Shown: positions 4,271-28,651 of the stretch, piece after piece
Numbering within the stretch: position 1 is the stretch's first letter
How the letters are laid out: every line of letters begins with the position of its first letter
Source: Deminuibacter soli
GTDB lineage: Bacteria; Bacteroidota; Bacteroidia; Chitinophagales; Chitinophagaceae
Assembly (NCBI RefSeq): GCF_003412455.1
Contig: NZ_QTJU01000005.1
Span: 1-64,000, forward strand
Length of the DNA: 64,000 nucleotides
Reading direction: 5' to 3'
Program-made: the position numbers and the translations under genes
Notes under the pieces: model-generated
What the model was told of the DNA's origin: nothing
The model's database searches: none
Seen by the model: the letters and a program-made list of their open reading frames with translations, nothing else

Positions 4271-7200
4271 ATGACTAGTACTACTTTTATCGTGGGTATA
4301 ACCCCTTTTGAACAGCCCGACGCAGATTTAGCCGTAGCCCTTGCCAAAGCCGGCCTGTTCCCTGTTATCCACGCAGGGCGCGATGCGGTGAAGGCCAATG
4401 CAGCCGTAGCACGGTTTACTGCACAATGCAGCTTACCCTTCGGCATCTGTTTTCCTGAAACATTCTCCGGCACTGTTGATTTGCCGCAGCAGGCCACCAT
4501 GGCCATTGTTCCCTTTCACTCAAGACTGCCCATACCACGTCATGTACAGTTATACTACCAGGTATATTCACTGGAAGAAGCACTGGCAGCAAGCGCTGCA
4601 GGCGCAACAGCACTTGTACTCAAAGGCAGTGAAAGCGGTGGCTGCAGCGGGGATACGGCCGCCTTTATATTGTTACAGCAGGTATTACAGCAAGCACCCG
4701 GCATCCCGGTGTTGCTGCAGGGTGGCATAGGCGTGCACAACGCAGCAGCAATAACCGCACTGGGCGCAGCAGGTGTAGTGCTCGATAGCCAGCTGGCCTT
4801 GTTTCCTGAAAGCAATATTCCCAAAAGCACACGCACTATCTGCGAAAAGCTCAATGGCAGCGAAACCAGGCTGATAGGGCATTACCGCGTACTGGTGCGG
4901 CCAGATTCACCGGCATTGACTGATGACGCAGTTATTACAGACTACTTTACCGGTTACGATGTTACGCAGGCTTACCTGCCCATTGGCCAGGATATAACAC
5001 TGGCGATTGACCTGCAACAGCAATACAAAAAACTCAGCCGCCTGTATTTTGCCATGCGTGAAGCCATGCACGGCCATTTAAAACAGGCACAGCATTTTAA
5101 TATACTCAGCGCAGGCAACAAACTTGCGCAGCAACTGCAACTCACCTACCCCATTGCACAAGGCCCCATGACACGCGTAAGCGATGTGCCTGCCTTTGCA
5201 GCAGCCGTCGCAAATGCAGGCGCACTGCCATTTGTAGCCTTATCGCTGTTAAAAGGTGAACAGGCAAAACAACTGCTGCGCGAAACCAAACAGCAGGCCA
5301 ACGGCAACACCTGGGGAGCAGGCATACTCGGGTTTGCTGACGCGGAACTGCGCAACGAACAGATTGGTTATATACTGGAAGAAAAACCACCGGTAGTACT
5401 TATTGCAGGCGGTACACCCGCACAGGCCAAATCGATGGAGCAGGCCGGCATACCGGCTTTTCTGCATGTACCTTCTGCATCGCTGCTTGATTTATTTCTA
5501 CGCGAAGGCGCAACAAAGTTTGTGTTCGAAGGCAGGGAATGCGGGGGGCATGTAGGCCCGCTGTCGAGCCTGGTGTTGTGGGAAAAACAGATCAACCGGC
5601 TGTTGCAGGAAGACGATCTCAGCCGCATCTCCATATTTTTTGCAGGTGGCATACACGATGCACGCAGCGCTGCACTGGTAGCCACCATGGCCGCACCACT
5701 GGCTGCACGCGGTGCAGCGATCGGCGTACTCATGGGCACTGCTTATTTGTACACGCAGGAAGCAGTGAGCACCGGCGCCATACTGCCCCAGTTTCAGCAA
5801 CAGGCCATAGCACAGCAACACACGGTATTGCTCGAAACAGCACCGGGCCATGAAACACGTTGCCTGCAATCGCCTTTTACTGATTTCTTTAAACAGGAGA
5901 AGCTACGCCTGCAGCAGGAAGGCGTTCCTAAAAAAGAAATATGGGAACAGCTGGAATCGCTGAATGTAGGCCGCCTGCGTATTGCAGCGAAAGGACTTGA
6001 ACGCAATGGCAACAACCTGCAGCAACTCAACGAACAGCAGCAGCTGCAAAACGGCATGTACATGATTGGGCAGGTAGCTGCCCTGCAAAACAAAGTGCTT
6101 ACCATGCAGCAACTGCACCAGGCGGTTGCAATGGACAACTATGCACTATTACAACAAGCCATGCTGCCTGAGCAGCCTGTGCACGACGATCAGGCACTGA
6201 ACATAGCCATTGTAGGCATGGCATGTATCTATCCCGGTGCCCGGAACGTGGAAGAGTTCTGGCGCAACATTATACTTGGGAAAGATGCCGTAACCGAAGT
6301 ACCGGATGAACGCTGGAACAAAGCACTGTACTACGATCCCGCCTCTGTCAATGGAGATAAAACACCCAGCAAATGGGGCGGCTTTATTCCATCTATCGAC
6401 TTCGATCCGCTGGCCTTTGGTATTCCCCCGCAATCACTTGCCGCCATAGAACCCACGCAGCTGTTAAGCTTGCTGGTAGCCAAACAGGCATTGGACAATG
6501 CCGGTTATGGCAGTGATGCATTAAACAAAGAAAACGTATCGGTGATCATCGGAGCAGAAGGCGGTAACGATTTGGCAGGCAGTTATACATTCCGCTCGCT
6601 GTTTACGCAGTTATTTGGCGAAATACCCGCTGAGCTGGATGCTGCGCTGCCAAGAATGACGGAAGATTCCTTCCCCGGTGTACTTGCCAATGTAATTTCA
6701 GGCCGTATTACCAACCGCCTTGACCTGGGTGGCAGAAACTATACGGTAGATGCTGCCTGCGCTTCTTCCCTGGCTGCGCTTGACCTCGCCTGCCAGGAAC
6801 TGCAACTCGAAAAATCAGACATGGTGCTGGCCGGCGCTGCCGACCTGCACAACAGCATATGCGACTACCTCCTGTTCTCCAGCACGCAGGCCCTTTCCCG
6901 CAAAGGCCGCTGCAGCACATTCGACGCAGGGGCCGATGGCATTGCCCTAGGCGAAGGCATTGCGATGCTGGTACTGAAACGCCATGCCGATGCTAAACGC
7001 GACGGAGACACGGTTTACGCCGTGATTAAGGGCATCGGCGGCTCAAGCGATGGCAAGAGCCTCGGGCTGACCGCGCCGCGCAAAAACGGCCAGTTACGCG
7101 CCCTGGAGCGCGCCTACACGCAGGCAGGCATTTCACCTGCTGCCGCAGGTTTAATTGAAGCACATGGTACAGGTACCGTTGTAGGTGATAAAACAGAACT

Positions 7201-10200
7201 GAGCGCGCTGTCGCAAATGTTCCAGCAGTCAGGGGCTTTAACTGCACAAACCTGGCTGGGATCGGTAAAAACACAGATTGGCCATACCAAGTGCGCAGCC
7301 GGTCTGGCCGGTGTTATCAAAGCAGCCTTGTCTGTATACCATGGTGTAAAACCTGCAACACTTCACCTTAGCACGCCCAATGCATATTATAAAGCAGGTG
7401 AAAGTCCGTTTGCCTTTAACCAGGTAGCCGGTGTATGGAACAGCACACGCCGCGTAGCCGGTATCAGTGCTTTTGGCTTTGGCGGCACCAATTTCCATGC
7501 AGTGATAGAAAACGATACACAGGCAGCTGCACCCGCTGCACTCAGCATATTACAGGCGTGGCCATCGGAGTTGTTTGTGTTCAGGGGAAAACAATTCAGT
7601 GATGCGCAAACACTGCTGCGCAGTGTGCATACCCTGCTGCAACACAACGATGGCACCAGTTTAACCAGTATTGCCTTCAGCCTGCACCAGTACAGCAACG
7701 ATCCCATCCAGCTGTGTATTGTGGCCAATGATGCAGAAGACCTTGCTGTAAAAATCAACCTGGCCTTATCAGGCGCAGCAGCAACCGGCGTATACCCGCT
7801 GCAGCCCGTAGCAGGCAAGGTAGCCTTCCTGTTTCCCGGGCAGGGCAGTCAGCGTATTAACATGGCGCGCGACCTGTTTGTGTGTTTCCCTGCGCTGCGC
7901 AGCTGGCTGGCGCAATACCCTGCTTATGAACAACTGCTTTTCCCTGCTGCCGTGTTTACTGCGCAACAGGCAGAAGAACAGAAACAAGCCATTAAAGACA
8001 CACGCATAGCACAACCCCTGCTGGGCATTACAGGCATGGCCATTGCACAACTGTTACAACTGCTGGGTATTACGCCCGATATGGCAGGCGGACATAGTTA
8101 TGGCGAACTGCCTGCGCTTTGCCTGGCAGGCGTTTTTGCACCCGATCAGCTGGTGCCCTTAAGTGAACAGAGAGCCAAAGCCATACTCGATGCCATTGAA
8201 GATGACAAAGGCACCATGATGGCCGTAAGCTGCAACGAAAACGATTTGCAGCAAATACTTTCGCTTGAACCGGGTGTTTATGCCGTTAACCACAACTCGC
8301 CCCAGCAATGGGTGCTCGCCGGTGGCACGGAACCGATGGAACGCCTGATGCAGCAGCTGAGAGACCGGAAGACTTCCTTCCGCCAGCTCGAAGTAGCGTG
8401 TGCCTTTCACAGTCCGCTGTTAAGCAAATCAAAAGCATTGTACCAGCAGGTATTGAACAATGTGCCATTCCGCGCGCCGGCCATACCGGTATGGAGCAAT
8501 ACCACGGCCGAACGTTACCCCACAACAGCCACTGCCATCAAGGAACGCTTAACCGATCACCTGGTGCAGCCCGTACTGTTCAGCGCACAGGTACAGCAGA
8601 TGTACGCAGCCGGGGCAAGGGTGTTTATAGAAGCAGGTCCGGGCAAGGTGTTGAGCGGACTGGTTAAAAACATTCTTGGTAAAGACGAACTGTTGTTACA
8701 CACCGAAGACAAAGACCAGCACGGTATTACCCACCTGCTGCATATGCTGGGCCGGTATATTGCCAGCGGTCGCGAAGTGGCCTTACAGCAATTGTTTGCC
8801 GGCAGAAAAGCAGCGATACTCAATCTCGACAACCCGCTGCAACATGCACGCAGCAACACCGTATGGAAGGTAAATGGCCATATGGCCCTGCCTGTAACCG
8901 GCAAACTGCCGCCGCATGGCGCCATGCCGGTTACCACGCCACTGCAATTAACACAGCCACACTGGCAAACAGCCGCACCGGTTGCAGCCGGCACATCTGA
9001 ACAGGTGGTGCAGGAATACCTCAGCAATATCAAAGCATTGATACAGGCGCAGCGCGATGTAATGATGGGCTTTCTTGGCAACCCGCAGTTGCCCGCAGTT
9101 ACCCCGGCCGTAGTAGTACAGCCCGCAGCAGCACAGCAATTGCCATCACCACAACCAGCAGTGGCAGCTGTAACAACTGCAACACCTGTTGTGGCAGACC
9201 TGAAACAACTACTGCTCCACATAGTAAGTGATAAAACAGGTTATCCTGCAGACATGCTGGGCATGGATATGGACATGGAAGCCGACCTGAGCATTGATTC
9301 CATCAAACGCACCGAAATACTGGGCGAGCTGAAACTGCGACTAGGTGGTGATTGGAACGGCAGCACCGAACAACTGTCACAGGGCAAAACACTGCAGGCA
9401 TTGTTACAGGTACTGCAAAGCGCCGCGCCCGTACAGGCAGCCGTAGCACTGGTTACAGCAGCTGAACAAACACATATCGTATCATTCAGCGCAGCAGAAC
9501 TGAAACAGATTTTACTGAATGTTGTAAGCGATAAAACCGGCTACCCCGCAGATATGCTGGGCATGGAGCTTGACCTGGAAGCCGATCTCAGTATCGATTC
9601 CATCAAACGCATGGAAATTATCGGTGAACTCAAAACAAAAACAGGCTTCAGCGGAAGCGACCAGCAAAGCGAACAGCTAAGCGCCCTTAAAACCCTGCAG
9701 GCACTGGTCAACTGGCTGGCCGAAACCCTCACCCGCAGCTTTGAGCCGGTAAAGGAAGCGCAGAAGATTATTGAAGAAGGATTCACACCTGCCACGGGCA
9801 ATGCTGTACTCAGCCGCCTGCGGCTGGAAAAAACTGCGCAGCCTTTAAGCAGCGCCAATAGCCACAACCTGCAGGGATGCAGCTTTGCCGTTGCCGGAGA
9901 TACAGCAACATTGAACGAATTACAGGCATTACTGCATCCGCTTGGCGCAACCGCAGTACAAGCATTGCCGGGACAAATGCCTGTGCATTGTGACGGGTTT
10001 ATACAACTGGACCTGTTTAATACATCATCACCGCTCAGCATCGCCGATAGCATGGCCATGCTGCAGCAACTCAACTGGCAGCAGCTGAAATGGGTACTGG
10101 CTGCAAGCGACCTGACTGCACATGCACGCAATGAAAACACAGCTGAAGTACTAAGCCGCATACAGGGATACCAGGGGTTTATCAAAAGCCTTGCAAAAGA

Positions 10201-11209
10201 ATACGAACACGTATGCTGCAGCAGCATTGAGTTGCAGCAGCCCATGCCCGCCGATCAGCTCGCAGCACTATTGCTGGGCGAACTACAGTATGCCACCACA
10301 AGCGCAGCCATCAGCTACGATAATGGTCACCGTTTTGTGCTGCAGCCCATGCCTGCAGCATTGGAAACACATACCGCTTCTGCCCTGCAGCTCACCAAGG
10401 AAAGCGTGGTACTGGTATTGGGAGGTGCACAGGGCATTACTGCAGAACTGATGATTCGCTTTGCGCAGGATTATCCCTGCCACTTTATACTCGTAGGCCG
10501 CTCTGCCGACCCGCGTGAACTGGCAGCAACAGCCGGCAGCCACCTGCACACCAAAGAGCAGATCAAACAATGGCTGATCACAGGCGGCACGGTGAAACGC
10601 CCTGCAGAAATAGAACAGCGCACCCAGGAAATACACAAGAACAACCAGGCCCGCAAAACCATTACCGCACTGGAGCAAACAGGCGCAACCGTTAGTTATT
10701 ATTCGCTGGATGCACGCGATGAAACAGCACTTGCACAGCTGGTACAGCAACTGTACAGCACCTATGGCCGCATAGATGGCGTAGTGCATGGTGCCGGTTT
10801 ACTGGAAGACAAATTGTTTGCACAAAAAACACCGGAATCGTTTGAGCGCGTGTTTACCACCAAGGTAAACCCCATGCGTGTGTTGGCTGCACAATTACAG
10901 CCAGGCCTGCAATTCATGGTATTGTTTTCGAGCGTGGCCTCGGCCTATGGCAACCGCGGGCAAACTGATTATGCCGCAGCCAACAGCGTGCTGGACGCCA
11001 GTGCAGCATTGCTGCGCAGCAAACTGAATACACATGTGATAGCCATTAACTGGGGCCCGTGGAAGGGAACAGGCATGGTATCGCCCAGCCTGGAACGGGA
11101 GTACGAACGCAAGGGCATTGCACTGATTCCGCTGGCACATGGCATGGAAGCCTTTATGCAGGAACTGCGGCACGGCAACGACAGCCAGGTAATTATCATG
11201 GCCGGTTAG
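4271..11209 (+). CDS. Giant PUFA-synthase-like polyketide synthase, NPD-NPD-KS-AT-ACP-ACP-KR
   Basis: This 2312-residue type I synthase should build and reduce an acyl chain on its own carrier domains. Two TIM-barrel modules of the nitronate monooxygenase/PfaD enoyl-reductase type come first (about 1-270 and 280-600). The second has ECGGHVG near residue 420; the first has ESGGCSG at the matching place and lacks the histidine. A ketosynthase follows (about 640-1080) with Cys830, His965 and His1005, then an acyltransferase (about 1180-1500) with PGQGSQ and nucleophile Ser1276 in GHSYGE. Two carrier domains with IDSIKR motifs have Ser1677 and Ser1777, exactly 100 residues apart. A ketoreductase ends the protein (about 2040-2300) with GGAQGITAE and DYAAAN. 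No dehydratase is seen; the next gene has one. The carrier motif and order resemble PfaA. It starts a cluster running to 21873. Confidence 0.92.
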   Translation: MTSTTFIVGITPFEQPDADLAVALAKAGLFPVIHAGRDAVKANAAVARFTAQCSLPFGICFPETFSGTVDLPQQATMAIVPFHSRLPIPRHVQLYYQVYSLEEALAASAAGATALVLKGSESGGCSGDTAAFILLQQVLQQAPGIPVLLQGGIGVHNAAAITALGAAGVVLDSQLALFPESNIPKSTRTICEKLNGSETRLIGHYRVLVRPDSPALTDDAVITDYFTGYDVTQAYLPIGQDITLAIDLQQQYKKLSRLYFAMREAMHGHLKQAQHFNILSAGNKLAQQLQLTYPIAQGPMTRVSDVPAFAAAVANAGALPFVALSLLKGEQAKQLLRETKQQANGNTWGAGILGFADAELRNEQIGYILEEKPPVVLIAGGTPAQAKSMEQAGIPAFLHVPSASLLDLFLREGATKFVFEGRECGGHVGPLSSLVLWEKQINRLLQEDDLSRISIFFAGGIHDARSAALVATMAAPLAARGAAIGVLMGTAYLYTQEAVSTGAILPQFQQQAIAQQHTVLLETAPGHETRCLQSPFTDFFKQEKLRLQQEGVPKKEIWEQLESLNVGRLRIAAKGLERNGNNLQQLNEQQQLQNGMYMIGQVAALQNKVLTMQQLHQAVAMDNYALLQQAMLPEQPVHDDQALNIAIVGMACIYPGARNVEEFWRNIILGKDAVTEVPDERWNKALYYDPASVNGDKTPSKWGGFIPSIDFDPLAFGIPPQSLAAIEPTQLLSLLVAKQALDNAGYGSDALNKENVSVIIGAEGGNDLAGSYTFRSLFTQLFGEIPAELDAALPRMTEDSFPGVLANVISGRITNRLDLGGRNYTVDAACASSLAALDLACQELQLEKSDMVLAGAADLHNSICDYLLFSSTQALSRKGRCSTFDAGADGIALGEGIAMLVLKRHADAKRDGDTVYAVIKGIGGSSDGKSLGLTAPRKNGQLRALERAYTQAGISPAAAGLIEAHGTGTVVGDKTELSALSQMFQQSGALTAQTWLGSVKTQIGHTKCAAGLAGVIKAALSVYHGVKPATLHLSTPNAYYKAGESPFAFNQVAGVWNSTRRVAGISAFGFGGTNFHAVIENDTQAAAPAALSILQAWPSELFVFRGKQFSDAQTLLRSVHTLLQHNDGTSLTSIAFSLHQYSNDPIQLCIVANDAEDLAVKINLALSGAAATGVYPLQPVAGKVAFLFPGQGSQRINMARDLFVCFPALRSWLAQYPAYEQLLFPAAVFTAQQAEEQKQAIKDTRIAQPLLGITGMAIAQLLQLLGITPDMAGGHSYGELPALCLAGVFAPDQLVPLSEQRAKAILDAIEDDKGTMMAVSCNENDLQQILSLEPGVYAVNHNSPQQWVLAGGTEPMERLMQQLRDRKTSFRQLEVACAFHSPLLSKSKALYQQVLNNVPFRAPAIPVWSNTTAERYPTTATAIKERLTDHLVQPVLFSAQVQQMYAAGARVFIEAGPGKVLSGLVKNILGKDELLLHTEDKDQHGITHLLHMLGRYIASGREVALQQLFAGRKAAILNLDNPLQHARSNTVWKVNGHMALPVTGKLPPHGAMPVTTPLQLTQPHWQTAAPVAAGTSEQVVQEYLSNIKALIQAQRDVMMGFLGNPQLPAVTPAVVVQPAAAQQLPSPQPAVAAVTTATPVVADLKQLLLHIVSDKTGYPADMLGMDMDMEADLSIDSIKRTEILGELKLRLGGDWNGSTEQLSQGKTLQALLQVLQSAAPVQAAVALVTAAEQTHIVSFSAAELKQILLNVVSDKTGYPADMLGMELDLEADLSIDSIKRMEIIGELKTKTGFSGSDQQSEQLSALKTLQALVNWLAETLTRSFEPVKEAQKIIEEGFTPATGNAVLSRLRLEKTAQPLSSANSHNLQGCSFAVAGDTATLNELQALLHPLGATAVQALPGQMPVHCDGFIQLDLFNTSSPLSIADSMAMLQQLNWQQLKWVLAASDLTAHARNENTAEVLSRIQGYQGFIKSLAKEYEHVCCSSIELQQPMPADQLAALLLGELQYATTSAAISYDNGHRFVLQPMPAALETHTASALQLTKESVVLVLGGAQGITAELMIRFAQDYPCHFILVGRSADPRELAATAGSHLHTKEQIKQWLITGGTVKRPAEIEQRTQEIHKNNQARKTITALEQTGATVSYYSLDARDETALAQLVQQLYSTYGRIDGVVHGAGLLEDKLFAQKTPESFERVFTTKVNPMRVLAAQLQPGLQFMVLFSSVASAYGNRGQTDYAAANSVLDASAALLRSKLNTHVIAINWGPWKGTGMVSPSLEREYERKGIALIPLAHGMEAFMQELRHGNDSQVIIMAG

Positions 11210-11265
11210 CCAGCCGCGCATTGCCCGAAACACGAATACTAACTCGCTCTGTTGAATTAACACCT

Positions 11266-14200
11266 ATGTCCCATCAAACCCATATCGCCATCATCGGCAT
11301 GTCCGGCATGTTTCCCGGCGCAGCCAATGTGCCGTCTTTCTGGGAGAACATCCTGCATAAAAAAGACGCCATTGAAACTGTGCCCGCTAACCGGATAGAT
11401 GCCCTATTCTTTGATACGCAAACCACGGCGCCTGACCGCTTTTACTGCCGCCGCGGTGGTTTTATAGATGCACATGCACAATTTAACCCCGTTCCCTTCG
11501 GCATTTTGCCTGTAGCCGTTGAAGGCACAGAACCCGAGCAATTGCTGGCCCTGCAGCTTGCACGCGATGCCCTGCGTGATGCAGACCTGCTGCACAATCA
11601 TATCTCATTGGGCAATACCGGCATCATCATTGGCAAGGGTAACTACAGCGGTCCTGCCGCTGTGCGTGCCATTGAAATTGTACGCAACGGCGAACAGCTG
11701 GCAGCACTGCTGCGCACTGCGCTGCCGCATTTATCACCCGAAGAGCTACAGCAGGTAAAGCAGCAATACCAGTTACAAAAAGGCCGTTTTACACCAGATA
11801 CCGTCATGGGTTTAATTCCCAACCTCACCGCATCGCTGGTAGCCAACCGGCTTAACCTTGGCGGCACTGCGCACACAGTAGATGCAGCCTGCGCCAGCTC
11901 GTTACTGGCCGTGCACCAGTGTATACAAGAGCTGGAAAGCGGCCGCTGCGATACCATGATTGCAGGAGGCGTACATGCCTGCCAGAATGCACCTTTCTGG
12001 AGCATTTTTACGCAGCTGGGGGCCTTATCCAGGCAACAGCAGATACGCCCGTTTGATCAGAAGGCAGACGGGCTGCTCATTGGCGAAGGCTGCGGTTTCG
12101 TGGTACTCAAAAAGCTGGAACACGCGCTGCGGGATGGCAACAAAGTATACGCCGTAATCAGGGGCACCGGTATATCCAGCGACGGCGCCGGCCAGAGTGT
12201 GATGAGCCCTGCTGTAAAAGGCCAGGTAAAGGCCATTACACAGGCCTGGCAACAGGCTGGCTTGCCCATGCAGCAGGTGGGTTATATTGAGGCACATGGC
12301 ACCGGCACCCCATTAGGAGATAAAACAGAGATCGCCTCGTTGCAGCAGGCATTCGGCTTTGATGCTGCATTGCCTAAAGCAGGACTGGGTTCCGTAAAAT
12401 CCAATATAGGTCACGCCATGCCTGCAGCCGGCATTGCCGGTTTAATTAAAACTGCGCTGGCTTTGTATTACGGCAAACTGCCGCCTACCCTGCATTGCGA
12501 TGAGCCGGTAAATGCCCTGCAGCAAACCCGCTTTGCACCGGTAACCGAAACAGCAGACTGGGATGCAGGCACCCTGCCACGCATAGCCGGTGTAAATGCT
12601 TTTGGTTTTGGCGGCATCAATGCCCATGTGGTGTTACAAGGCTTTGAAGCATCGAAGCAGATTCCGCGGAAGTCAACACAAAGCAGCAATACCACACAGC
12701 AAAAAGACAAAGTGCTGCTGCTGGCACGCCCTAGCAATGAGGCACTGCTGCAGGCGCTGCAACACAACGAACAGCAAACAGGGGAAGGCAATTTCCGCAT
12801 TGCCTTGTTTGATCCCACCCCTGAACGCATACAGAAGGCCATCAAAATAGTTACCCGCAACACCCCATGGCGCAACAGGCAGGATATCTGGTATACACCT
12901 GAACCACTATTAAGCAACGGCGGCAAACTCGCTTTTGTATTTCCTGGTCTTGACGGACTGGCTGCCGGTGAAACAGCTTCCATTGCGCAATACTTTAACC
13001 TCACTCCTGTACAGCATTCCGCTACCCGGACAGGTGAACTGTTGCACAATGTTTTCGCTGCCATCAACAGCAGCCGTTATATTGATGCAGCCCTAAAACA
13101 ACTCGGTGTGCAACCTGATATAATTGCCGGCCATAGCCTGGGTGAATGGCTGGGATGGAGCAGCGCAGGCATGGTAGAAGAAGCATCTGTGCTGCAACTG
13201 CTGGGCGACTTAAACCCGGCAGATTACCAGTTGCAGCATTCCCGTTTCCTGGCAGTGGGTTGCGGGTATGATCGTATCAAACCTTTGATGGATCAGATTC
13301 CAGGTCTCTATTTATCCAACGATAATTGTCCGCAGCAGATCATTGTTTGCGGCACACCGGAAGCAGTGGAACAATTAACCACCCTGTTACTGGAGCAGCA
13401 GGTATTTCACCAGCAACTGCCCTTCCAGAGCGGCTTCCACTCCCCTTTTGTAAAGGCACAGTTACCCTTGCTGCTGGCCAATGTAAACAAGATCAGCTTT
13501 ACGCCGGGCAAGGTGCCGCTATGGTCTGCCACCAGCCTGCAGCCTTACCCGCAAAACAAGGAAGCCATATTGGCCTTAACAGAAGAACACTTAACACATA
13601 CCGTTCGCTTCAGGGAATTAACACAGCAGCTGTACAAAGAAGGCGTACGGGTATTTATACAGGCAGGTGCAGGCGGACTGAACGGCTTTATAGACGATAC
13701 GCTGAAACAGCAATCCTACAGCGCGGTTGCAGCCAATGTGGCCACGCGCAGCGGCATTGGCCAGCTGCAACGGGTACTGGCCGCTTTATTTGTAGAAGGC
13801 CGTGCTATTGCGATGGATTTTATACAGCCACAACAACCTGTGAAACAGGCAGGCACAGCCATACAGCTGCAACTGGGCTCACCACTGGTGCAACACTGGC
13901 CACTGCTGCAAAGCATTGCCACACCACCCGCGAAACCACGTGCAGCAGGCATACCGGTATCGCAGCCTGTGCAGGCATTGCCGGCACATGCACCGGCCCT
14001 TGCGCAAACAGTCAGCGAAAACATAGCCCTGCTGCAGGAGGCACAAAACGAATTGCTGGCGCTGTTACAGCAACGCCCCGTAACAAGCACCACACCTGCA
14101 TTTGCCGCACCGCCGCCTGTACAGCCCAAACAATTTAACGCGCCTTTGCAGGTATCATTGCACACACACCCCTACCTGCTGGATCATGCACTGATGCGGC

Positions 14201-15567
14201 AGAAAGAAGGCTGGCAGCATATGGACGACATGGAGCCGGTGATTCCCATGACCATGATACTGGAACTGTTTGCCGATGCTGCAGCCAATGCCGCACCTGG
14301 CAAACGGGTACTGCAGATAAACGAAGTACAGGTATTTCAATGGATGAGCGTTGCCACCGATTTAAACAGCGTGATTCAATGCGAATGGCAAAACAACAAC
14401 AGCCTGCAGCTGCACATTGACCAGTATGCGCGCGCAGGTGTGCTGCTGGGTGATAGCTATACCGCAGCGCCGCCTTTTAACCTGAACCCGGGTGAAGCCA
14501 CCGGCATTGCTCCTGACCGGGCCACCATTTACCGCGGGCATATGTTTCATGGACCGGCCTACCAGGGCATTGTACGCGTGTTACATACCGGCAAACAGGG
14601 CATCACCGGTATTATTGAAGGCGGCACAGGCAAAGGCTCATTGCTCGACAATGCAGGACAGCTCTTTGGGCTGTGGCTGCAACTGACATTAACAGAAGAG
14701 CGGGTAGCCTTCCCGGTAAACATCCGCGAAGTAAATTTCTACGATGATTATACCAGGCAGCACGGAACATTTGAGTGCACCTGTGTGCTTACACAACTCA
14801 CACCGGAATATGCATTGGGCGATTTCATTTTGATGCGCGATGGCAAAGTATGGGCCACCATTAAAGGCTGGCAAAACAGGCGGCTCGAAATAGATGCCCG
14901 CCTGTGGCAAAGCTGCATGCAGCCGCTGGGCACTGCATTGAGCGATATGCTTGCGCCGGGCGTATTCTTCTTCAACAGCCGTTACCAGCGCGTGAATTCA
15001 TGGCATTTTATTCTAAAGCGATACTTCACCGGGGCTGAACGCCGTTATCGACAGCAATTGCCGATAAACAAACAAAAGCAATGGACCATCAGCCGTATTG
15101 CAGCTAAAGATGCCGTACGTTATGTGCTGGACCAACGTGATGCATCCTGTTATCTTAACGAACTGAGCATACATAACCATACCAACGGGCAGCCTTATGC
15201 AAGCGGTGAAACAACGGCAGACATACAGCTTTCCATCGCCCACAAAGGCACCGATGCAGTGGCCATTGCCGCAGCAGGTAAACGGGTTGGTATTGACATA
15301 GAGCTGATAGCCCCACGCAGTGAAGGTTTTATCGATATGGTATTCGCTGCACAGGAATGGGCGCTGATCAAAGACCTTGACCTGCCTGAATGGACTACCC
15401 GCTGCTGGGTAGCGAAAGAAGCTTATGCCAAATACCTAGGCACAGGTTTACAGGGCAACCCGAAACAATACGGGATTACAGCGATACAAGGCCATGCGCT
15501 TAAAATAAACGAGACCTGGATCACCACAATTCAACACAAAAATTACATTATCGGATGGACCATTTAA
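11266..15567 (+). CDS. Second PUFA-synthase-like subunit, KS-AT-DH-phosphopantetheinyl transferase
   Basis: This 1433-residue protein complements the preceding synthase. The ketosynthase (about 1-440) keeps Cys209, His344 and His383. The acyltransferase (about 550-860) has nucleophile Ser624 in GHSLGE, but the usual GQGSQ motif reads PGLDGLAAGE, so the oxyanion glutamine seems lost and the domain may be weak or have another role. A hotdog dehydratase-like domain begins near 960 with HPYLLDH. The C-terminus (about 1290-1433) is a 4'-phosphopantetheinyl transferase with GIDIE and WVAKEAYAK, which could load the carrier domains of this cluster. I chose the ATG at 11266, 56 bases after the first synthase; an upstream in-frame start would add 69 residues that overlap that gene and match nothing. 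Its end overlaps the next gene by 13 bases. Confidence 0.9.
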   Translation: MSHQTHIAIIGMSGMFPGAANVPSFWENILHKKDAIETVPANRIDALFFDTQTTAPDRFYCRRGGFIDAHAQFNPVPFGILPVAVEGTEPEQLLALQLARDALRDADLLHNHISLGNTGIIIGKGNYSGPAAVRAIEIVRNGEQLAALLRTALPHLSPEELQQVKQQYQLQKGRFTPDTVMGLIPNLTASLVANRLNLGGTAHTVDAACASSLLAVHQCIQELESGRCDTMIAGGVHACQNAPFWSIFTQLGALSRQQQIRPFDQKADGLLIGEGCGFVVLKKLEHALRDGNKVYAVIRGTGISSDGAGQSVMSPAVKGQVKAITQAWQQAGLPMQQVGYIEAHGTGTPLGDKTEIASLQQAFGFDAALPKAGLGSVKSNIGHAMPAAGIAGLIKTALALYYGKLPPTLHCDEPVNALQQTRFAPVTETADWDAGTLPRIAGVNAFGFGGINAHVVLQGFEASKQIPRKSTQSSNTTQQKDKVLLLARPSNEALLQALQHNEQQTGEGNFRIALFDPTPERIQKAIKIVTRNTPWRNRQDIWYTPEPLLSNGGKLAFVFPGLDGLAAGETASIAQYFNLTPVQHSATRTGELLHNVFAAINSSRYIDAALKQLGVQPDIIAGHSLGEWLGWSSAGMVEEASVLQLLGDLNPADYQLQHSRFLAVGCGYDRIKPLMDQIPGLYLSNDNCPQQIIVCGTPEAVEQLTTLLLEQQVFHQQLPFQSGFHSPFVKAQLPLLLANVNKISFTPGKVPLWSATSLQPYPQNKEAILALTEEHLTHTVRFRELTQQLYKEGVRVFIQAGAGGLNGFIDDTLKQQSYSAVAANVATRSGIGQLQRVLAALFVEGRAIAMDFIQPQQPVKQAGTAIQLQLGSPLVQHWPLLQSIATPPAKPRAAGIPVSQPVQALPAHAPALAQTVSENIALLQEAQNELLALLQQRPVTSTTPAFAAPPPVQPKQFNAPLQVSLHTHPYLLDHALMRQKEGWQHMDDMEPVIPMTMILELFADAAANAAPGKRVLQINEVQVFQWMSVATDLNSVIQCEWQNNNSLQLHIDQYARAGVLLGDSYTAAPPFNLNPGEATGIAPDRATIYRGHMFHGPAYQGIVRVLHTGKQGITGIIEGGTGKGSLLDNAGQLFGLWLQLTLTEERVAFPVNIREVNFYDDYTRQHGTFECTCVLTQLTPEYALGDFILMRDGKVWATIKGWQNRRLEIDARLWQSCMQPLGTALSDMLAPGVFFFNSRYQRVNSWHFILKRYFTGAERRYRQQLPINKQKQWTISRIAAKDAVRYVLDQRDASCYLNELSIHNHTNGQPYASGETTADIQLSIAHKGTDAVAIAAAGKRVGIDIELIAPRSEGFIDMVFAAQEWALIKDLDLPEWTTRCWVAKEAYAKYLGTGLQGNPKQYGITAIQGHALKINETWITTIQHKNYIIGWTI

Positions 15568-15854
15568 CACCAGCAACCAGACTTAGCAGCGACGAGATTT
15601 TCGTTGTACTCAAACAATTCATCACAGAAGTAATCGGCGCCGAGTTTGCAGACGGGCTCGACATTTCAAAGGACAGCACCTTTACCCGCGACCTGGAAAT
15701 GGACAGCATTGAGCTGGTTGCTTTCTCGGAAAAAGTAAAACAGCATTTCGGCACAGGCATCGATTTCACCGGCTGGTTATCGAACATGGATATAGACCAG
15801 CTTATTGCATTAAACCTGAACAACATCATCCAATACATCCAGCAATGCCAGTAA
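15555..15854 (+). CDS. Discrete acyl carrier protein
   Basis: This 99-residue protein has the size and helical pattern of a free-standing carrier protein. The phosphopantetheine attachment serine is in MDSIEL, preceded by a TFTRDLEM stretch typical of the ACP helix II start. It overlaps the synthase upstream by 13 bases and the hydrolase downstream by 10, so the three genes are almost surely translated together. The phosphopantetheinyl transferase fused to the upstream protein is the obvious activator. It may supply a starter or extender acyl unit or carry the finished chain to the transferases; the sequence does not say which. Confidence 0.88.
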   Translation: MDHLTPATRLSSDEIFVVLKQFITEVIGAEFADGLDISKDSTFTRDLEMDSIELVAFSEKVKQHFGTGIDFTGWLSNMDIDQLIALNLNNIIQYIQQCQ

Positions 15855-16687
15855 TCAAGTTAACCAGTAACACCACCCTGCACTACCAGGAAATGAACAG
15901 GGGCGCTGCAGAAACCATTGTGCTGATACATGGCATGATGAGCAACCTCTCTGTGTTTTATTTCAACATCGCTCCCATGCTCGCACAGCGGTACCATGTA
16001 GTGCTGTACGATTTAAAGGGCCATGGCCTCAGCAGCAAATGCACCTGGGGTTATCACCTGCAGGGCATGGCAGCCGATTTAATACAACTGCTCGATGCAC
16101 TGCACCTGCGCCAGGTACACGTGGCCGGTTACAGCTATGGTGCACTGATTGCCCTGCAAACAGCCGTATCGTATCCCGAACGCATACAGCAACTCGTAGC
16201 CATTGAAGCGCCCGACCCATTTGAACAGCAAACATTGGCCCGCATTGATGCCTACAGCAAAAGTGCATTACTCGAACAAATAGCCGCAGCCGGCAAGGCA
16301 CAGGGCAAACCCATGAGCAAAAGACAACTGGAACGCAACTATAACCTCTATCATTTTTTATTGAAACAAACCACCCTGCAGCAGGATATGCTGGCTGAAA
16401 AAGATTTCATGCAGCAGCCAGGCATTGACCGCCTGCTGCACAATACGCTGCTGTTATACGGCACCGATTCTCCCTGCGCCAGTACAGGCAAACAGCTGCT
16501 GCGTAAAATACCCAACGCACAACTTGCCTGGCTGGCAGGCGACCACCACATACCCGTGCAACAACCCTTCCAGGTAGGCAGCAGCATCAACAGTTTCCTG
16601 CAACCACGTGAAAACAGGATACACCATTTTCAACCTTCTGCCACAAGCATCGGCGTAGAAACACCCGGCTGGAACCTGGCGATGTAG
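15845..16687 (+). CDS. Alpha/beta hydrolase of the polyketide cluster, possible thioesterase
   Basis: This 280-residue protein has the alpha/beta hydrolase fold. The strand-turn LIHGMM forms the oxyanion region, the nucleophile is Ser97 in GYSYG, and GDHHIP near the C-terminus supplies a likely catalytic histidine. There is no signal peptide, so it should act in the cytoplasm. Its ten-base overlap with the carrier protein gene argues for release or editing of acyl chains on the synthase, in the manner of a type II thioesterase. A hydrolase acting on another ester or amide is equally possible from sequence alone. The C-terminal 25 residues look unstructured. Confidence 0.8.
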   Translation: MPVIKLTSNTTLHYQEMNRGAAETIVLIHGMMSNLSVFYFNIAPMLAQRYHVVLYDLKGHGLSSKCTWGYHLQGMAADLIQLLDALHLRQVHVAGYSYGALIALQTAVSYPERIQQLVAIEAPDPFEQQTLARIDAYSKSALLEQIAAAGKAQGKPMSKRQLERNYNLYHFLLKQTTLQQDMLAEKDFMQQPGIDRLLHNTLLLYGTDSPCASTGKQLLRKIPNAQLAWLAGDHHIPVQQPFQVGSSINSFLQPRENRIHHFQPSATSIGVETPGWNLAM

Positions 16688-16847
16688 CGGCTGCGCCGCG
16701 TTCCGAAGTTCAATTGTTCAATGGTTCAATGGTTAGCAGCCATACCCGATTCAACACGAGCAATGGAACTTTTGAACTACTGGAACTTTTGAACCGGCGC
16801 TCTATCAACGTCAAACCTGAAACTTGAAACACAAAACTGAAAACACC
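16688..16847. repeat. Stuttering repeats between the hydrolase and glycosyltransferase genes
   Basis: This gap is filled with imperfect short repeats. TGGAACTTTTGAAC occurs twice, at 16764-16777 and 16781-16794. GTTCAATGGTTCAATGGTTA-like units lie at 16707-16735, and TGAAACTTGAAACACAAAACTGAAAAC-like units precede the next start codon. No terminator with a T-run was seen, so the genes on both sides may still share a transcript. The composition matches other intergenic stutter repeats in the window. Confidence 0.55.
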
Positions 16848-18047
16848 ATGGCTAAATTTGTATTCACTGTTCCCCCGCTCGCAGGCCACGTAAACCCTAC
16901 GTTAAGCATTGGTGCTGCCCTGCTGCAGCAGGGACATGAAGTAGGCTGGATAAGCATTGACCCAACACTCGAAACCCGCCTGCCGCAGGGCGCACACTGG
17001 CTGCCTGTACCGCCGCAGCCCGGTACCCTGCCCGAAGCAGAACGCATCAGCAATATTTCGCAGCAAAATGTATACGGTGTAGAAAGCATCCGCTTCCTGT
17101 ACGATGATGTGCTGATTCCATTAAACCGTTACCTGTACCACTGTATCTGCGACCTGCTCGACAGCTACCGGCCCGACCTGGTTATACACGATCACCAGGT
17201 ATTTGCAGGGGCCATGGCTGCCTGGAAAAAAAACATTCCGTTTGTTACTTCGGTTACCGCACCTGCTTCTGTAAAAATGAAAGATGAGCTGCCGGCCATA
17301 CACCAGTGGGAAAACAATAAAATACTGCAACTGCAGCAACAACTTGGCCTGCACCATCCTGAAGCCATTACGCTTTCACAGCAACTGGTGCTGCTGTATA
17401 CCACGCAGTTGTTTTTTGGTGATACGCAGCTTTCACAAGAATACCATTTCACCGGCCCCGTTACTTCCAACAGACCGGCGCATGTAGCTTTTAACTGGGA
17501 TGCCTTTCACGCGCATGGTTACGCCTATACCATACTCGTATCTATCGGCACTACGTTTGATCATGCGTATAAAAAAGACTTCTTTGAAAAGCTGGTCGCC
17601 GCATTCGCCGGGGAGAACATACAGGTGATTGTGGTATCAACACCCGGTTTGCTCAACAGCTGGCCGGAGAATTTTATAGTACAGGAACGCGTGCCGCAAC
17701 TGCAATTGCTGCCGTATGTGGATGCCGTTGCTTGCCACGGCGGGCAAAACACCGTATCTGAAACCCTGCAGCATGGCCTGCCCCTGGTAGTAGTGCCCAT
17801 TGCATACGACCAGTCGTATGTAGCATCGCGTGTAACCGCTACCGGATGCGGGCTGCGGCTGAATTACAAGCGTTTTACTCCTGCACAGCTGCGGCAGCAT
17901 GTATACAGCATCTTAACCGAACCTGCCTATAAAAACGCTGCTGAAACCATGCGCCATTCGTTTGAACAGGCAGGCGGCACTGCCTATGCCGTTCAGCTGC
18001 TCGAAAACTGTTTGCAAACACAGCCTGCTTTCACCACACTTACCTAA
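16848..18047 (+). CDS. GT1-family glycosyltransferase A (MGT/UGT-like)
   Basis: This 399-residue GT-B fold enzyme should transfer a sugar from a nucleotide donor to a small lipophilic acceptor. The N-terminal acceptor domain has the catalytic histidine His14 in PPLAGHVNPTL. The C-terminal donor domain has the family signature around HGGQNTVSETLQHGLP followed by PIAYDQ. The start is the ATG at 16848, because MAKFVFTVPP aligns exactly with the start of the next gene; a longer frame adds eight residues of intergenic repeat. It is followed after 21 bases by a paralogue, and the pair sits in the polyketide cluster. The acceptor is probably the synthase product. Sugar and donor cannot be read from sequence. 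Confidence 0.88.
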   Translation: MAKFVFTVPPLAGHVNPTLSIGAALLQQGHEVGWISIDPTLETRLPQGAHWLPVPPQPGTLPEAERISNISQQNVYGVESIRFLYDDVLIPLNRYLYHCICDLLDSYRPDLVIHDHQVFAGAMAAWKKNIPFVTSVTAPASVKMKDELPAIHQWENNKILQLQQQLGLHHPEAITLSQQLVLLYTTQLFFGDTQLSQEYHFTGPVTSNRPAHVAFNWDAFHAHGYAYTILVSIGTTFDHAYKKDFFEKLVAAFAGENIQVIVVSTPGLLNSWPENFIVQERVPQLQLLPYVDAVACHGGQNTVSETLQHGLPLVVVPIAYDQSYVASRVTATGCGLRLNYKRFTPAQLRQHVYSILTEPAYKNAAETMRHSFEQAGGTAYAVQLLENCLQTQPAFTTLT

Positions 18048-18068
18048 CCCTGCTCAACTATCTGTATC

Positions 18069-19292
18069 ATGGCTAAATTTTTATTTGTAGTTCCGCCCTT
18101 TTTCGGCCACATCAGTCCTACCCTGAGCGTGGGCGCCACTTTGCTGCAACGCGGACACAAGGTGGTATGGACAGGGCTGCAACCTCTGGCGCCGCACCAT
18201 ATACCCGAAGGCGGCGTATGGATTACTCCTGAAGAAGAACTGGCCCCGCACCGCGAGGCGATTGCACGTGTGTTAAAACGCCAGGATGACGGCCCCAACA
18301 TTTCAGGTGCAGAAGCCCTGAAACTGGCACTGGAAGAAACCTATGCCCCCTTTTGCCGCTGGATGATGCCAGGCGTATCACGCATTGCCGATAACTTTCA
18401 GCCGGATGTTATTGTGAGCGATTGCATTACCTGGGCAGGCGCCATATGCGCTTACAGCAAAGGCATTCCTTATGCCACTACCACGCCGGTGCCACCCGGC
18501 ATTGTGGGTGAAGAAATGCTGGAAACACCTAAAATCAATGCCTGGCAAAATGCCCTGATCACCGGCCTGCAGCAGGAGTTTGGCATTTATACCGATGCAC
18601 ACATTGTTAACTCACCGCAGCTGAATATTGTATTCACCTCTGCCGAGTTTGCCGGTTGCACAAAGCCACCGCCACACATGCAATTTACCGGGCCGGTGAA
18701 AGGCAGGCCCAACAATGCACCGTTTGACTGGGATAAACTGGCGGCGATGCCTTCTCCCAAAGTATACGCCTCTATCGGTACTTTGCTGGTAAACATACGC
18801 AAGGAGTTTTTCAGCAAGCTGGTTACTGCATTTGGCAATACACCGGTAACCATTGTGGCAGCAACACATCCCGGCATTATGGAAGAATGGCCGTCGAATT
18901 TTATTGTGCAGGATTTTGTACCACAGTCGGCTGTAATGGCACAGATGGATGCAGTGATTTGTCATGGTGGCTTTAATACCGTGAACGACACCTTCCTGCA
19001 TGGCCTGCCCATGATAATCACGCCCATTGCCTATGACCAGTTTCATACGGCATCGCTGATAGAGCGCGCCGGCTGCGGCATTAAACTGCGCTACAAGCGC
19101 CTGCGCATACCCGACCTGCAGCAGGCCCTGCATAATGTGTTGCACAACCCGCAATACAGGCTGGCCGCACAACGCATACGGGAAACTTATATCAATGCGG
19201 GCGGCAACGATGCAGCAGTATTTCACCTCGAACAATTTGCAGCCGCAAACAAAACCAGCACCCATCTAACGAATGCAAACAGCCACATATGA
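18069..19292 (+). CDS. GT1-family glycosyltransferase B, paralogue of the preceding gene
   Basis: This 407-residue protein repeats the plan of its upstream neighbour: His14 in PPFFGHISPTL, and a donor-binding segment around CHGGFNTVNDTFLHG with PIAYDQ after it. The two proteins are alike throughout, so they arose by tandem duplication, but they differ enough to suggest different acceptors or successive sugar additions. It overlaps the following acyltransferase gene by four bases (ATGA), which implies translational coupling. No signal peptide is present, as expected for a cytoplasmic nucleotide-sugar enzyme. Confidence 0.88.
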   Translation: MAKFLFVVPPFFGHISPTLSVGATLLQRGHKVVWTGLQPLAPHHIPEGGVWITPEEELAPHREAIARVLKRQDDGPNISGAEALKLALEETYAPFCRWMMPGVSRIADNFQPDVIVSDCITWAGAICAYSKGIPYATTTPVPPGIVGEEMLETPKINAWQNALITGLQQEFGIYTDAHIVNSPQLNIVFTSAEFAGCTKPPPHMQFTGPVKGRPNNAPFDWDKLAAMPSPKVYASIGTLLVNIRKEFFSKLVTAFGNTPVTIVAATHPGIMEEWPSNFIVQDFVPQSAVMAQMDAVICHGGFNTVNDTFLHGLPMIITPIAYDQFHTASLIERAGCGIKLRYKRLRIPDLQQALHNVLHNPQYRLAAQRIRETYINAGGNDAAVFHLEQFAAANKTSTHLTNANSHI

Positions 19293-20611
19293 GAAGACAA
19301 CTGATTTTTCTTGAACACCTGATGTATGGCAACGGAAGCCAGCCTTTCAATGGTGTATTTCACCTGCAGCTGAAAGGCGGGATTACTGCTGAAGGGTTGC
19401 GGCATGCGCTTGACCGCATACAGGTAAAACATGCCATGTTGCGCGCACGCATTACCACCGGTGCACATAACATGCCGTGGTTTGAATGCCAGGTAGAAGC
19501 ACCGCCCATTCCGCTGGAGATTGTTTCACGAGAAGATGATGACCACTGGCGCAGGCGAACAGAACAGGAATGGAAAACCTTGTTCCCGGTTGAAACCGGT
19601 CCGCTTGCGAAAATGGTATGGTTACGCGACGCCGCTACCAGCGATCTGCTGCTGGCCTTTCATCACTGTTTGTGCGATGGCTCTTCTGCAGTAGCCATTG
19701 TGCAGGAATTATTATTACTGCTGGAACAACCCGGCGCCCACATCGGCACGGATGATATGATACCGCCCGTGCAGCAATGGGCTAAACAGTACATTCAATG
19801 GCCGCTGCTGCACAGCCTTTCCCGCCGCAGCATGGCTGCAGCAGCCAAAATATTTATAGGTGCAGGCGCAGCTTTTATTAATACCAGCAAACCCCTGAAC
19901 ATACCCAGGAATGAAGATTACCTGCTGCACTGGAAGCTGGATGCAGCACAGTCTGCCGCGCTGTTGCAGCAATGCAAACTGCATGGCGTAACGGTAAACA
20001 CCGCGCTGGCGCTGGCCTGGCTGCGTGCGTATGAAGTAGTGAAACAGGCAGGTAAATTCAAAATCACCTGCCCGGTCGACATCCGAAAGTTTGTACCGGA
20101 AATAAAAAGCGATAGTATATTCTCCTTTGGCGTCTCTATCAGTTTTGCATTTGACGGTGACACCAAAACACCTTTCTGGCAAAAAGCCATCTTACTGCAA
20201 CAACAGGCAGCCAAACAGTTACAGCAACTGAAACCATATCATCTACTCTGTTCGCTTGAGCATTTTCATGGTATACAGCCTGCCATGCAAAAGCTGTTTC
20301 GGTACGGTAAAATCAAGAACGATTTTATGTTCTCTAACATGGGGCCGCTGCCCATCCGGCAAAAGTACCATGGCTTTGAAGTAACAGCCATCCATAGTCC
20401 AACAGTGATTGGCCCGTTTGGAAACCCCACCACCATCATCACCTCTACCTATGACGGTCAAATGGATTTTGGTTTTGTTTCCAACAACACCATTGTTTCG
20501 CTGGAACAGGCAAAGGCCATCAAGGCAGCTGCACTAAATCTGTTGTTTAGCCACGCAGCCATTGCTACAACAGCTATACAACACATCACCCTGCAAAACA
20601 CCATTGCATGA
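19289..20611 (+). CDS. Condensation-domain-like acyltransferase A
   Basis: This 440-residue protein belongs to the superfamily of NRPS condensation domains, PapA acyltransferases and wax-ester-synthase-like enzymes. It begins with the fold's first strand and helix (MRRQLIFLEHLM) and keeps the catalytic HHxxxDG motif as HHCLCDG, with His126 and Asp130. The SNMGPL segment near 340 matches the structural N-containing motif of the C-terminal half. There are no adenylation or carrier domains, so it works alone. It likely moves an acyl group from a carrier or CoA onto the sugar or hydroxyl of the cluster product. It overlaps the genes on both sides by four bases, and the next gene is its paralogue. 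Confidence 0.82.
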   Translation: MRRQLIFLEHLMYGNGSQPFNGVFHLQLKGGITAEGLRHALDRIQVKHAMLRARITTGAHNMPWFECQVEAPPIPLEIVSREDDDHWRRRTEQEWKTLFPVETGPLAKMVWLRDAATSDLLLAFHHCLCDGSSAVAIVQELLLLLEQPGAHIGTDDMIPPVQQWAKQYIQWPLLHSLSRRSMAAAAKIFIGAGAAFINTSKPLNIPRNEDYLLHWKLDAAQSAALLQQCKLHGVTVNTALALAWLRAYEVVKQAGKFKITCPVDIRKFVPEIKSDSIFSFGVSISFAFDGDTKTPFWQKAILLQQQAAKQLQQLKPYHLLCSLEHFHGIQPAMQKLFRYGKIKNDFMFSNMGPLPIRQKYHGFEVTAIHSPTVIGPFGNPTTIITSTYDGQMDFGFVSNNTIVSLEQAKAIKAAALNLLFSHAAIATTAIQHITLQNTIA

Positions 20612-21873
20612 AACGCAAACTGCTGATAGGCGAACGGATTATGTATGTAGACGCCGCAACTCCCGTAAATTGTGTATTCACTGTACGTTTGCTTGGGCAA
20701 ATTACGCTGCCTATGCTTGAAACAGCCTGCGCACGCCTGCAGGCCTCACATGCCATGTTGCGCGCTGTGATACGCAAAAATGCCTGGGGCCGCCCCTATT
20801 TTGTTACCAGGCCGCAAACACTGCCGCTCCCCATTGTGATACGTGAACGCAGTCACAATGACCAATGGCTCAATGAATCGGAATGGCAGTGGAAACAGCT
20901 GTTCAATGAATACGAAGGGCCACTGGCAAGGATGGTGTGGTTACGGGGACCACAGGTTTCAGAACTGATGCTGGTTTGCGCACACTGTATCTGCGACGGC
21001 ACCACCATTGCCAACCTCATGCGCGAACTGTTGCAGCTGATCGACAACCCTGCTGCCGAACTCGGTACAGACGAAGGTTTCAGCCACCTGCGCCAGCTGT
21101 TGCCCCGGCACCGGCTGCCATTCTCCAAAAAACTGAAAACATCTTTATTCGCCGGCATTACCCGTGTAAGCATGCAGGCAAAAAAGTTTGCGATAGCTGC
21201 ACCCGGTACACCGCAGGTGTTGCACTGGAAACTTTCCGAAACAGCTACAACCGATTTGTTACTGCGCAGCAAACAGGCAGGCTGCTCCCTGCATACCATG
21301 TTGTGTGTGGCTTTTCTGCAGGCGTTTAAAGAAGTACAGGGCGATAGTGCACGCGGCAAACTGATTTGCCCCGCAGACATCAGGCGCTATGTGCCGGCCC
21401 TTGCCAAACACCATATGTTTGCCTATGCACCGGTGATAGAATTGTCACTGACTGCAACAACGGGCAATGATTTCTGGAGCCATGCGCAGTCACTCAAACA
21501 AACGCTTATGCTGCACCTCAACAACCTGCATGTGGAAGACCAGCTGTTGTTGGGTGAATATTTCCACGGCAGTGTGCCGCAAATGATACGCATGCTGCAA
21601 AGCATGGACGGCGCGCATGATGTAACCCTCAGCAATATGGGCAAACTCGATATCCCGGCGCATTACAAGCATTTTGACGTGGCAGATGTGTTCAGTCCAA
21701 CAGTGGCTTTTCCCTGGCGCAATGCCAACACGCTTGTAGCCAGTTCGTTCCGCAACCGGCTGGATTGCTGTTTTGTGTTTAACGATGCTTTTTTAAGCAA
21801 ATCGGCGGCAGAGCGCATCCGCGACCGGGCTACCAGCCTGCTGCAGCAGCCCTATACCGTGCCTGCTGCCTGA
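20608..21873 (+). CDS. Condensation-domain-like acyltransferase B
   Basis: This 421-residue protein is a paralogue of the preceding one. Its catalytic motif reads AHCICDG: the first histidine of HHxxxDG is replaced by alanine, but the essential second histidine (His126) and Asp130 remain. SNMGKL near 340 again marks the C-terminal half. The start overlaps the upstream stop as ATGA. It closes the cluster; the next gene, a thioredoxin, begins 127 bases later. With two glycosyltransferases and two acyltransferases, two rounds of sugar addition and acylation are conceivable, which is inference only. Confidence 0.8.
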   Translation: MKRKLLIGERIMYVDAATPVNCVFTVRLLGQITLPMLETACARLQASHAMLRAVIRKNAWGRPYFVTRPQTLPLPIVIRERSHNDQWLNESEWQWKQLFNEYEGPLARMVWLRGPQVSELMLVCAHCICDGTTIANLMRELLQLIDNPAAELGTDEGFSHLRQLLPRHRLPFSKKLKTSLFAGITRVSMQAKKFAIAAPGTPQVLHWKLSETATTDLLLRSKQAGCSLHTMLCVAFLQAFKEVQGDSARGKLICPADIRRYVPALAKHHMFAYAPVIELSLTATTGNDFWSHAQSLKQTLMLHLNNLHVEDQLLLGEYFHGSVPQMIRMLQSMDGAHDVTLSNMGKLDIPAHYKHFDVADVFSPTVAFPWRNANTLVASSFRNRLDCCFVFNDAFLSKSAAERIRDRATSLLQQPYTVPAA

Positions 21874-22434: not shown

Positions 22435-22481
22435 TGACGCGTTGCAATAAATTCCTCCGCTTCACGACTGACGACTTACGT

Positions 22482-22520
22482 AAAAAAATCCCCGGCCTTA
22501 AACTGGCCGGGGATTTTTTT
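22482..22520. terminator. Bidirectional rho-independent terminator
   Basis: A perfect stem CCCCGGCC / GGCCGGGG around a seven-base loop is flanked by A-runs on the left and T-runs on the right, so it works in both directions. It separates the thioredoxin gene (+) from the convergent GMC oxidoreductase gene (-), whose stop codon it touches. Confidence 0.9.
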
Positions 22521-24219: not shown

Positions 24220-24243
24220 ATAATTGAGGGTAAAGCGTAAATG

Positions 24244-28356: not shown

Positions 28357-28390
28357 AGTAATCAATTTAAAATAAATGGAGGTTGAATCA

Positions 28391-28618: not shown

Positions 28619-28634
28619 AAATGAACATTCATTT
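28619..28634. promoter_or_regulatory. Palindromic operator, probable TetR site 1
   Basis: The arms AAATGAA and TTCATTT pair perfectly around two bases (CA). The site lies just upstream of the HMA-like gene start and within the gap after the TetR gene. The ten-base core TGAACATTCA recurs in reverse orientation in front of the TetR gene. TetR-family proteins often bind such dyads near their own genes, so this is a good candidate binding site. Confidence 0.6.
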
Positions 28635-28651
28635 AGGTGAATGAGTAAAAA

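Follow-up and report, generated by a model that had tools for sequence, protein, structure and literature searches.

A conserved Bacteroidota gene cassette links a secondary-lipid synthase to paired glycosyl- and acyltransferases and probably directs synthesis of an acylated diglycosyl lipid

Eight adjacent genes, all on the plus strand at positions 4271-21873 of the window (the whole 64,000-nucleotide stretch of DNA analysed here, from the 5.83 Mb genome of Deminuibacter soli), were defined by ORF calling together with Pfam and NCBIfam searches, and likely act as a single unit in the biosynthesis of an acylated diglycosyl lipid. Specifically, the most likely product, its chemistry being read from the genes, would be a long-chain (hydroxy)acyl diglycoside finished by acylation. 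Bacteroidota secondary-lipid synthases have been known since 2011 without a product, and the constant association of such a synthase with two glycosyltransferases and PapA-type acyltransferases predicts a definite compound class, with named culturable strains to look in. The features are as follows.

4271..11209, + strand, pfaDA-like (ArsA-like) synthase, 2312 aa (Pfam/NCBIfam; FabK matches in PDB)
11266..15567, + strand, pfaBC-like synthase, 1433 aa (Pfam, conserved motifs, AlphaFold model)
15555..15854, + strand, free acyl carrier protein, 99 aa, with a DLEMDSIEL motif (Pfam PP-binding)
15845..16687, + strand, alpha/beta hydrolase (Pfam Abhydrolase_1, E 2e-23)
16848..18047, + strand, GtA, GT1-fold glycosyltransferase (Pfam; YjiC/Ole-type GT1 in PDB)
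18069..19292, + strand, GtB, GT1-fold glycosyltransferase (Pfam)
19289..20611, + strand, PapA, HHxxxDG acyltransferase of the condensation/PapA5 superfamily (Pfam Condensation, PapA_C)
20608..21873, + strand, PapB, PapA5-like HxxxD acyltransferase (PDB 8s6l, PapA5, E 1.6e-13)
22480..22522, no strand assigned, strong terminator-like hairpin of 18 pairs, 3' of the thioredoxin gene (consensus match only)

A preliminary description of this DNA had listed two synthases, a free carrier protein, a hydrolase, two GT1 enzymes and two HxxxD acyltransferases in one direction, most of them with overlapping or near-touching ends. Both points hold: all eight reading frames lie on the plus strand with domains supported by Pfam or NCBIfam, and the gaps between them are, in order, +56, -13, -10, +160, +21, -4 and -4 nt. 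In about 80 relatives the median overlaps have the same values at pfaBC/ACP (-13), ACP/hydrolase (-10) and PapA/PapB (-4); the 160 nt between hydrolase and GtA are unusual, the median being 12 nt in relatives with separate glycosyltransferases. The start codons are most likely the ATG at 11266 for pfaBC and that at 16848 for GtA. No match to the Bacteroidota promoter consensus was found anywhere in the window, and its sigma-70 promoter matches did not exceed those of shuffled sequences.

On the same strand, 127 nt past papB, lies a thioredoxin gene (22001-22315), which may be co-transcribed with the cassette; the strong terminator-like hairpin appears only after it. Downstream, the opposite strand carries a GMC-type oxidoreductase gene accompanied by a small one (22519-24795), which together resemble an ordinary sugar-dehydrogenase-like pair, and then an MFS transporter with a TetR regulator (27076-29242). 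A similar-looking MFS gene with a TetR-like neighbour directly adjoins the cassette in two relatives (G116 and G188; loci L045/L150 and L048). The pair was rejected as a cassette component: it adjoins only in these two genomes, is 5 kb off in the window and does not recur in the named loci.

The first synthase, pfaDA, begins with a degenerate NMO-like domain (residues 1-260), followed by a FabK/NMO enoyl reductase (~283-623), KS1 (645-1138), AT1 (1186-1473), ACP1 (motif at 1672), ACP2 (1747-1816) and KR (2046-2265). A repeat of the DLSIDSIKR motif reveals the second ACP, and the second NMO-like domain retains the GGH motif; paired ER domains have a precedent in thraustochytrids (PMC13311796). 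Across 83 sequences the catalytic motifs of pfaDA are ~97% conserved. The second synthase, pfaBC, comprises KS2 with an active Cys (residues ~6-506), AT2 (~608-840), a DH (~945-1220) and a PPTase (~1300-1433); its motifs are invariant in 81 sequences and the KS2 Cys is 100% conserved. The stretch from AT2 to the PPTase gave no Pfam match. Residues 945-1220 were assigned to a PKS-type DH because an AlphaFold model of residues 945-1433 (pLDDT 88) matches PKS DH domains in the PDB with E ~1e-13 (CurJ 3kg8, E 1.2e-13), and because neither the catalytic His nor the DxxxQ motif varies among the 81 sequences. The D-S-I of the free ACP is likewise invariant in 81 sequences, and the catalytic residues of KS, AT, KR, DH and ER are all kept. 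AT2 corresponds to PfaB, for which a recent study reports a role as terminal acyltransferase (PMC12895367); this suggests by analogy that AT2 acts on the completed chain.

The top NCBIfam match is the PfaA model TIGR02813, at 1006.9 bits, and could be taken to indicate a genuine polyunsaturated fatty acid synthase flanked by unrelated genes. However, this is highly improbable: the score falls just below the cut-off of 1010.1; no chain-length factor lacking the Cys was found, the KS2 Cys being present in every sequence with no further KS-like domain; no FabA-like DH/isomerase match was obtained, the fold being that of a PKS-type double hot-dog DH; the PPTase carries P1b'; and the transferases are linked in every case, in some loci as fusions with one another. 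On score, chain-length factor and FabA-like domain the canonical pfaA-D synthase was therefore rejected. Specifically, the PPTase shows P1b' and P1a in 81/81 sequences, P0 in 2/81 and P1b in 0/81, which agrees with the secondary lipid synthases of types M-T, described by Shulse & Allen 2011 as having P1a x(G/D)xP and P1b' hShxH without P1b. That paper also assigns a product-less Type N to Chitinophaga pinensis and Chryseobacterium gleum and suggests for it a role in microcysts. By this description our synthase would fit Type N, with which it shares the phylum and genera, the P1a and P1b' motifs and the lack of a known product, whereas glycosyltransferases are unmentioned in the text of the paper. 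Thus, of the earlier assignment to the Pfa/secondary-lipid and heterocyst-glycolipid type, the secondary-lipid part stands, and both the canonical PUFA and the heterocyst-glycolipid synthase fall away, given the retained KS2 Cys without a chain-length factor, the PKS-type DH and the P1b' PPTase.

Among characterised types, the phenolic-lipid synthase ArsA/ArsD (Type P) of Azotobacter and Beijerinckia is the nearest by sequence. The pfaDA protein is homologous to the Beijerinckia ArsA-like protein (ER-KS-AT-ACPs-KR; 39.7% identity over 1634 columns), and pfaBC residues ~919-1431 to its ArsD-like protein (DH-PPTase). Unlike Beijerinckia, which has a type III PKS between the synthase genes, the cassette has none; it carries an extra KS2-AT2 on pfaBC, and GT1 and PapA genes instead. 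Type P is described as making C22-26 acyl chains for phenolic lipids (PMC3098273). Cyanobacterial heterocyst glycolipid (hgl) islands likewise combine a secondary-lipid synthase with a glucosyltransferase (HglT) (PMC11804610), but the cassette differs from them by its domain split, two GT1 enzymes, PapA-type finishing, the absence of hgd genes and the absence of an exporter recurring in the flanks. Fused pfaDA and pfaBC-PPTase also occur in Aquimarina and Flavobacterium, but within PKS-NRPS hybrids (JACS Au 2026).

Bacteroidota loci of this sort receive the antiSMASH label 'hglE-KS' (PMC10459008, PMC11446778). In C. herbae (PMC10459008) and S. thalpophilum, hglE-KS/T1PKS regions are recorded without a similar known cluster, and the C. 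herbae region appears, by its coordinates, to include one of our loci (L083). That region is labelled hglE-KS,T1PKS,terpene (PMC10459008); a link to a terpene or carotenoid product was rejected, there being no terpene gene among the recurring genes of the 3-4 kb flanks. The papers searched, with subscription papers and MIBiG outside the scope of the search, assign no product and do not describe the conserved transferase set, in line with the earlier remark that the glycolipid does not obviously match a known one.

The proteins expected to finish the chain also retain their active sites. In the alignment of relatives, the GxSxG and His of the hydrolase are 98% conserved, and the enzyme is probably a thioesterase for chain release or a lactonising enzyme. 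HH, D and G of PapA and H and D of PapB are 100% conserved; PapB has PapA5, a lipid acyltransferase, as its best PDB match, so that the cassette enzymes combine the HxxxD catalytic motif with PapA5 homology. GtA and GtB are 37% identical, and both fall in the GT1 group (UDPGT/EryCIII-like) that also holds macrolide glycosyltransferases. The residue ending their nucleotide-sugar motif is Gln in every GtA and His in 78/78 other GtB proteins; in the window GtB (motif end at residue 324) it is Gln, so this enzyme may use a different sugar donor. A Gln or His at this place bears on sugar choice in plant UGTs, and by analogy the contrast between GtA and GtB is a weak clue to different sugars.

The membership of the macrolide-type group raises the alternative of a diffusible, antibiotic-like glycosylated polyketide, in which the glycosyltransferases would serve activity or self-protection. 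The glycosyltransferases do match the macrolide-family MGT model, with scores under the cut-off, and the distribution described below is patchy and horizontally mobile; against this, there is a single iterative, ArsA/ArsD-like module pair, PapA5-like acyltransferases are present, and the cassette has no conserved exporter, resistance or regulator gene. We therefore give this alternative little credence and retain the acylated diglycosyl lipid. Specifically, for an exporter, none was found in the conserved cassette at 80 named loci with flanks of 3-4 kb. This absence also weighs against the acylated diglycosyl lipid, as does the GT1 group that its glycosyltransferases share with macrolide enzymes. 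Mycobacterial phenolic glycolipid pathways (PKS, glycosyltransferase and PapA5) follow the same logic of chain, sugar and PapA5-type acyl transfer; their synthase layout and sugars are unrelated, so they serve as an analogy only.

When 84,980 species genomes were scanned with the pfaBC alignment, 177 relatives emerged, and the best 80 of these, all from Bacteroidota, were analysed. They belong to Chitinophaga, Flavihumibacter, Taibaiella, Niabella, Pedobacter, Mucilaginibacter, Sphingobacterium, Dyadobacter, Chryseobacterium and Flavobacterium; the carriers are soil and environmental Bacteroidota of at least ten genera and four orders. The preliminary description had proposed searching synthases and gene order against Bacteroidota genomes: in tblastn with the window proteins, order and strand were as in the window at 80/80 named loci, two of which (L094 and L120) are cut by contig ends. 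The synthase also occurs in 6/299 sampled genomes of the same family, with the cassette around it by gene calling, some GC-rich genes having been hidden from the simple ORF caller. Among ORFs in the flanks, examined over 3-4 kb, a single family, the ninth gene described below, is common to more than three genera, and the others are unshared. Because the order recurs in the 80 named loci and six same-family genomes while the flanks are not shared, it is not due to chance.

Prevalence is patchy: 4/393 in a phylum sample, window genome included, and 68/249 in Weeksellaceae, the family of genome G501, which cross-matching of loci shows to include Chryseobacterium. Carriers of the cassette include about 60 genomes from a single Weeksellaceae genus, many named Chryseobacterium and several Chitinophaga. 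The evolutionary distances of all eight proteins correlate (r 0.80-0.94 across genera), in part through shared organism history. In the pfaBC tree, Sphingobacterium groups with the Flavobacteriales cassettes, apart from its family members Pedobacter and Mucilaginibacter, and the Flavobacterium seoulense sequence is placed within Chryseobacterium. These placements show that the synthase is transferred horizontally between lineages, families included, and that the linked genes accompany it. The window is the most divergent member of the tree, on a long branch whose place is unsure.

Gene fusions tie the parts together further. GtA and GtB are fused in one open frame of ~800 aa at 37 loci (Chryseobacterium 30/31, Flavobacterium 2/2, Sphingobacterium 5/5), which cluster on the tree. 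In addition, a ninth gene, encoding a conserved, previously undescribed membrane protein of ~165 aa with four helices, directly follows PapB in 70/80 named loci (loci L050-L129; for example L050:20361-20843). It is absent from the window, from Dyadobacter and from some Chitinophaga, and no copy was found elsewhere in the window genome in a search run without a positive control in that genome. The protein belongs to no Pfam or NCBIfam family (weak matches only) and has no fold match in the PDB. In the genomes G116 and G188 it forms the C-terminal part of PapB (588 and 643 aa), placing PapB at the membrane. Such fusions are good evidence that the fused parts act on one pathway, and together with the distance correlations they tie the transferases to the synthase; with the synteny, they speak against a separate transferase unit.

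The course that we propose, in which chain length, hydroxylation, order of steps, identity of sugars and acyl groups, location and role are all predicted, would run as follows. The fused PPTase would prime the synthase pair, which would then extend a long acyl chain from malonyl units in repeated cycles and probably retain one or more hydroxyls on it; a point against this is that the full reducing set could yield a chain free of hydroxyls. AT2, the free ACP and the hydrolase would finish or release the chain, GtA would then attach one sugar and GtB another, and PapA and PapB would add acyl groups to the glycolipid as esters, acting at the membrane in lineages that have the four-helix partner. 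The product would probably be a cell-envelope or secreted surfactant-like glycolipid. The earlier proposal of a fatty or polyketide chain carrying sugars and acyl groups thus gains from the phylum-wide synteny, both kinds of fusion, the co-inheritance and the exchange of finishing genes described next, while the compound itself is predicted from the genes.

The end of the cassette varies between lineages. In a second Weeksellaceae genus (G691, G714, G742, G759 and G766) the order pfaDA-pfaBC-ACP-hydrolase-GtA-GtB is kept, an antisense ORF having masked the ACP frame of G766 in the simple caller, and the Pap genes are replaced by a multi-helix protein of ~525 aa. Three of these proteins were tested: two match PMT_2, one above and one just below the cut-off, and one gave no match. 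In four checked PMT_2-type relatives the GtB motif ends in Gln, as in the window. Two Streptomyces plasmids (NBC_01243 and NBC_00984) have the same order from pfaDA to GT1, with one GT1 followed by a SAM methyltransferase and no known product. Their glycosyltransferase matches the GtA profile with a higher score than the GtB profile, which suggests from sequence that GtA is the ancestral first glycosyltransferase and GtB a later addition. Across lineages, therefore, synthase, ACP, hydrolase and GT1 are constant and the last modification is variable: PapA acyltransferases, a PMT_2-like membrane glycosyltransferase or a methyltransferase.

These variants also bear on the possibility that the product is a sugar ester and not a lipid glycoside. 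PapA5 transfers mycocerosates. In a comparable manner, GtA and GtB could make a disaccharide on another small acceptor, and PapA and PapB could move synthase-made chains from the ACP onto sugar hydroxyls to give a polyacylated saccharide; the intact HxxxD of the PapA5-like enzymes, the free ACP within the unit and a Pap copy number that varies from 2 to 3 between relatives are in keeping with this. However, the Pap-less relatives, with a PMT_2-like protein or a methyltransferase, keep synthase, ACP, hydrolase and GT1, and there the chain must therefore meet the sugar without a Pap enzyme. We regard the sugar ester as rather unlikely, and the acylated diglycosyl lipid remains our preferred reading.

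More tentatively, and with some doubt, the cassette may be one branch of a cross-phylum glycolipid machine, in which a fixed core (ArsA/ArsD-like synthase with added KS-AT, ACP, hydrolase and GT1) would make a glycosylated long-chain hydroxy fatty acid and exchangeable modules would add acyl groups, an extra sugar or a methyl. Fattiviracins and cycloviracins contain long trihydroxy fatty acids bearing glucose, some of them 2-methoxylated (PMC4365757); the actinomycete branch could make compounds like these, and as yet unisolated acylated diglycosyl relatives could come from the Bacteroidota branch. With the core kept and the finishing step swapped, products should differ predictably between Chryseobacterium, Pedobacter and Chitinophaga (acyl), the second Weeksellaceae genus (extra sugar) and Streptomyces (methyl).

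Two further layouts were observed. In G766, a second synthase pair (L144:10621-17927, contig C54) stands without transferase genes beside it. On plasmid pSC52_2 of Rhodobacteraceae SC52 (L155), a TauD-type dioxygenase, a methyltransferase and two unknown proteins lie between the members of an ArsA/ArsD-like synthase pair, a further secondary-lipid arrangement yet to be characterised.
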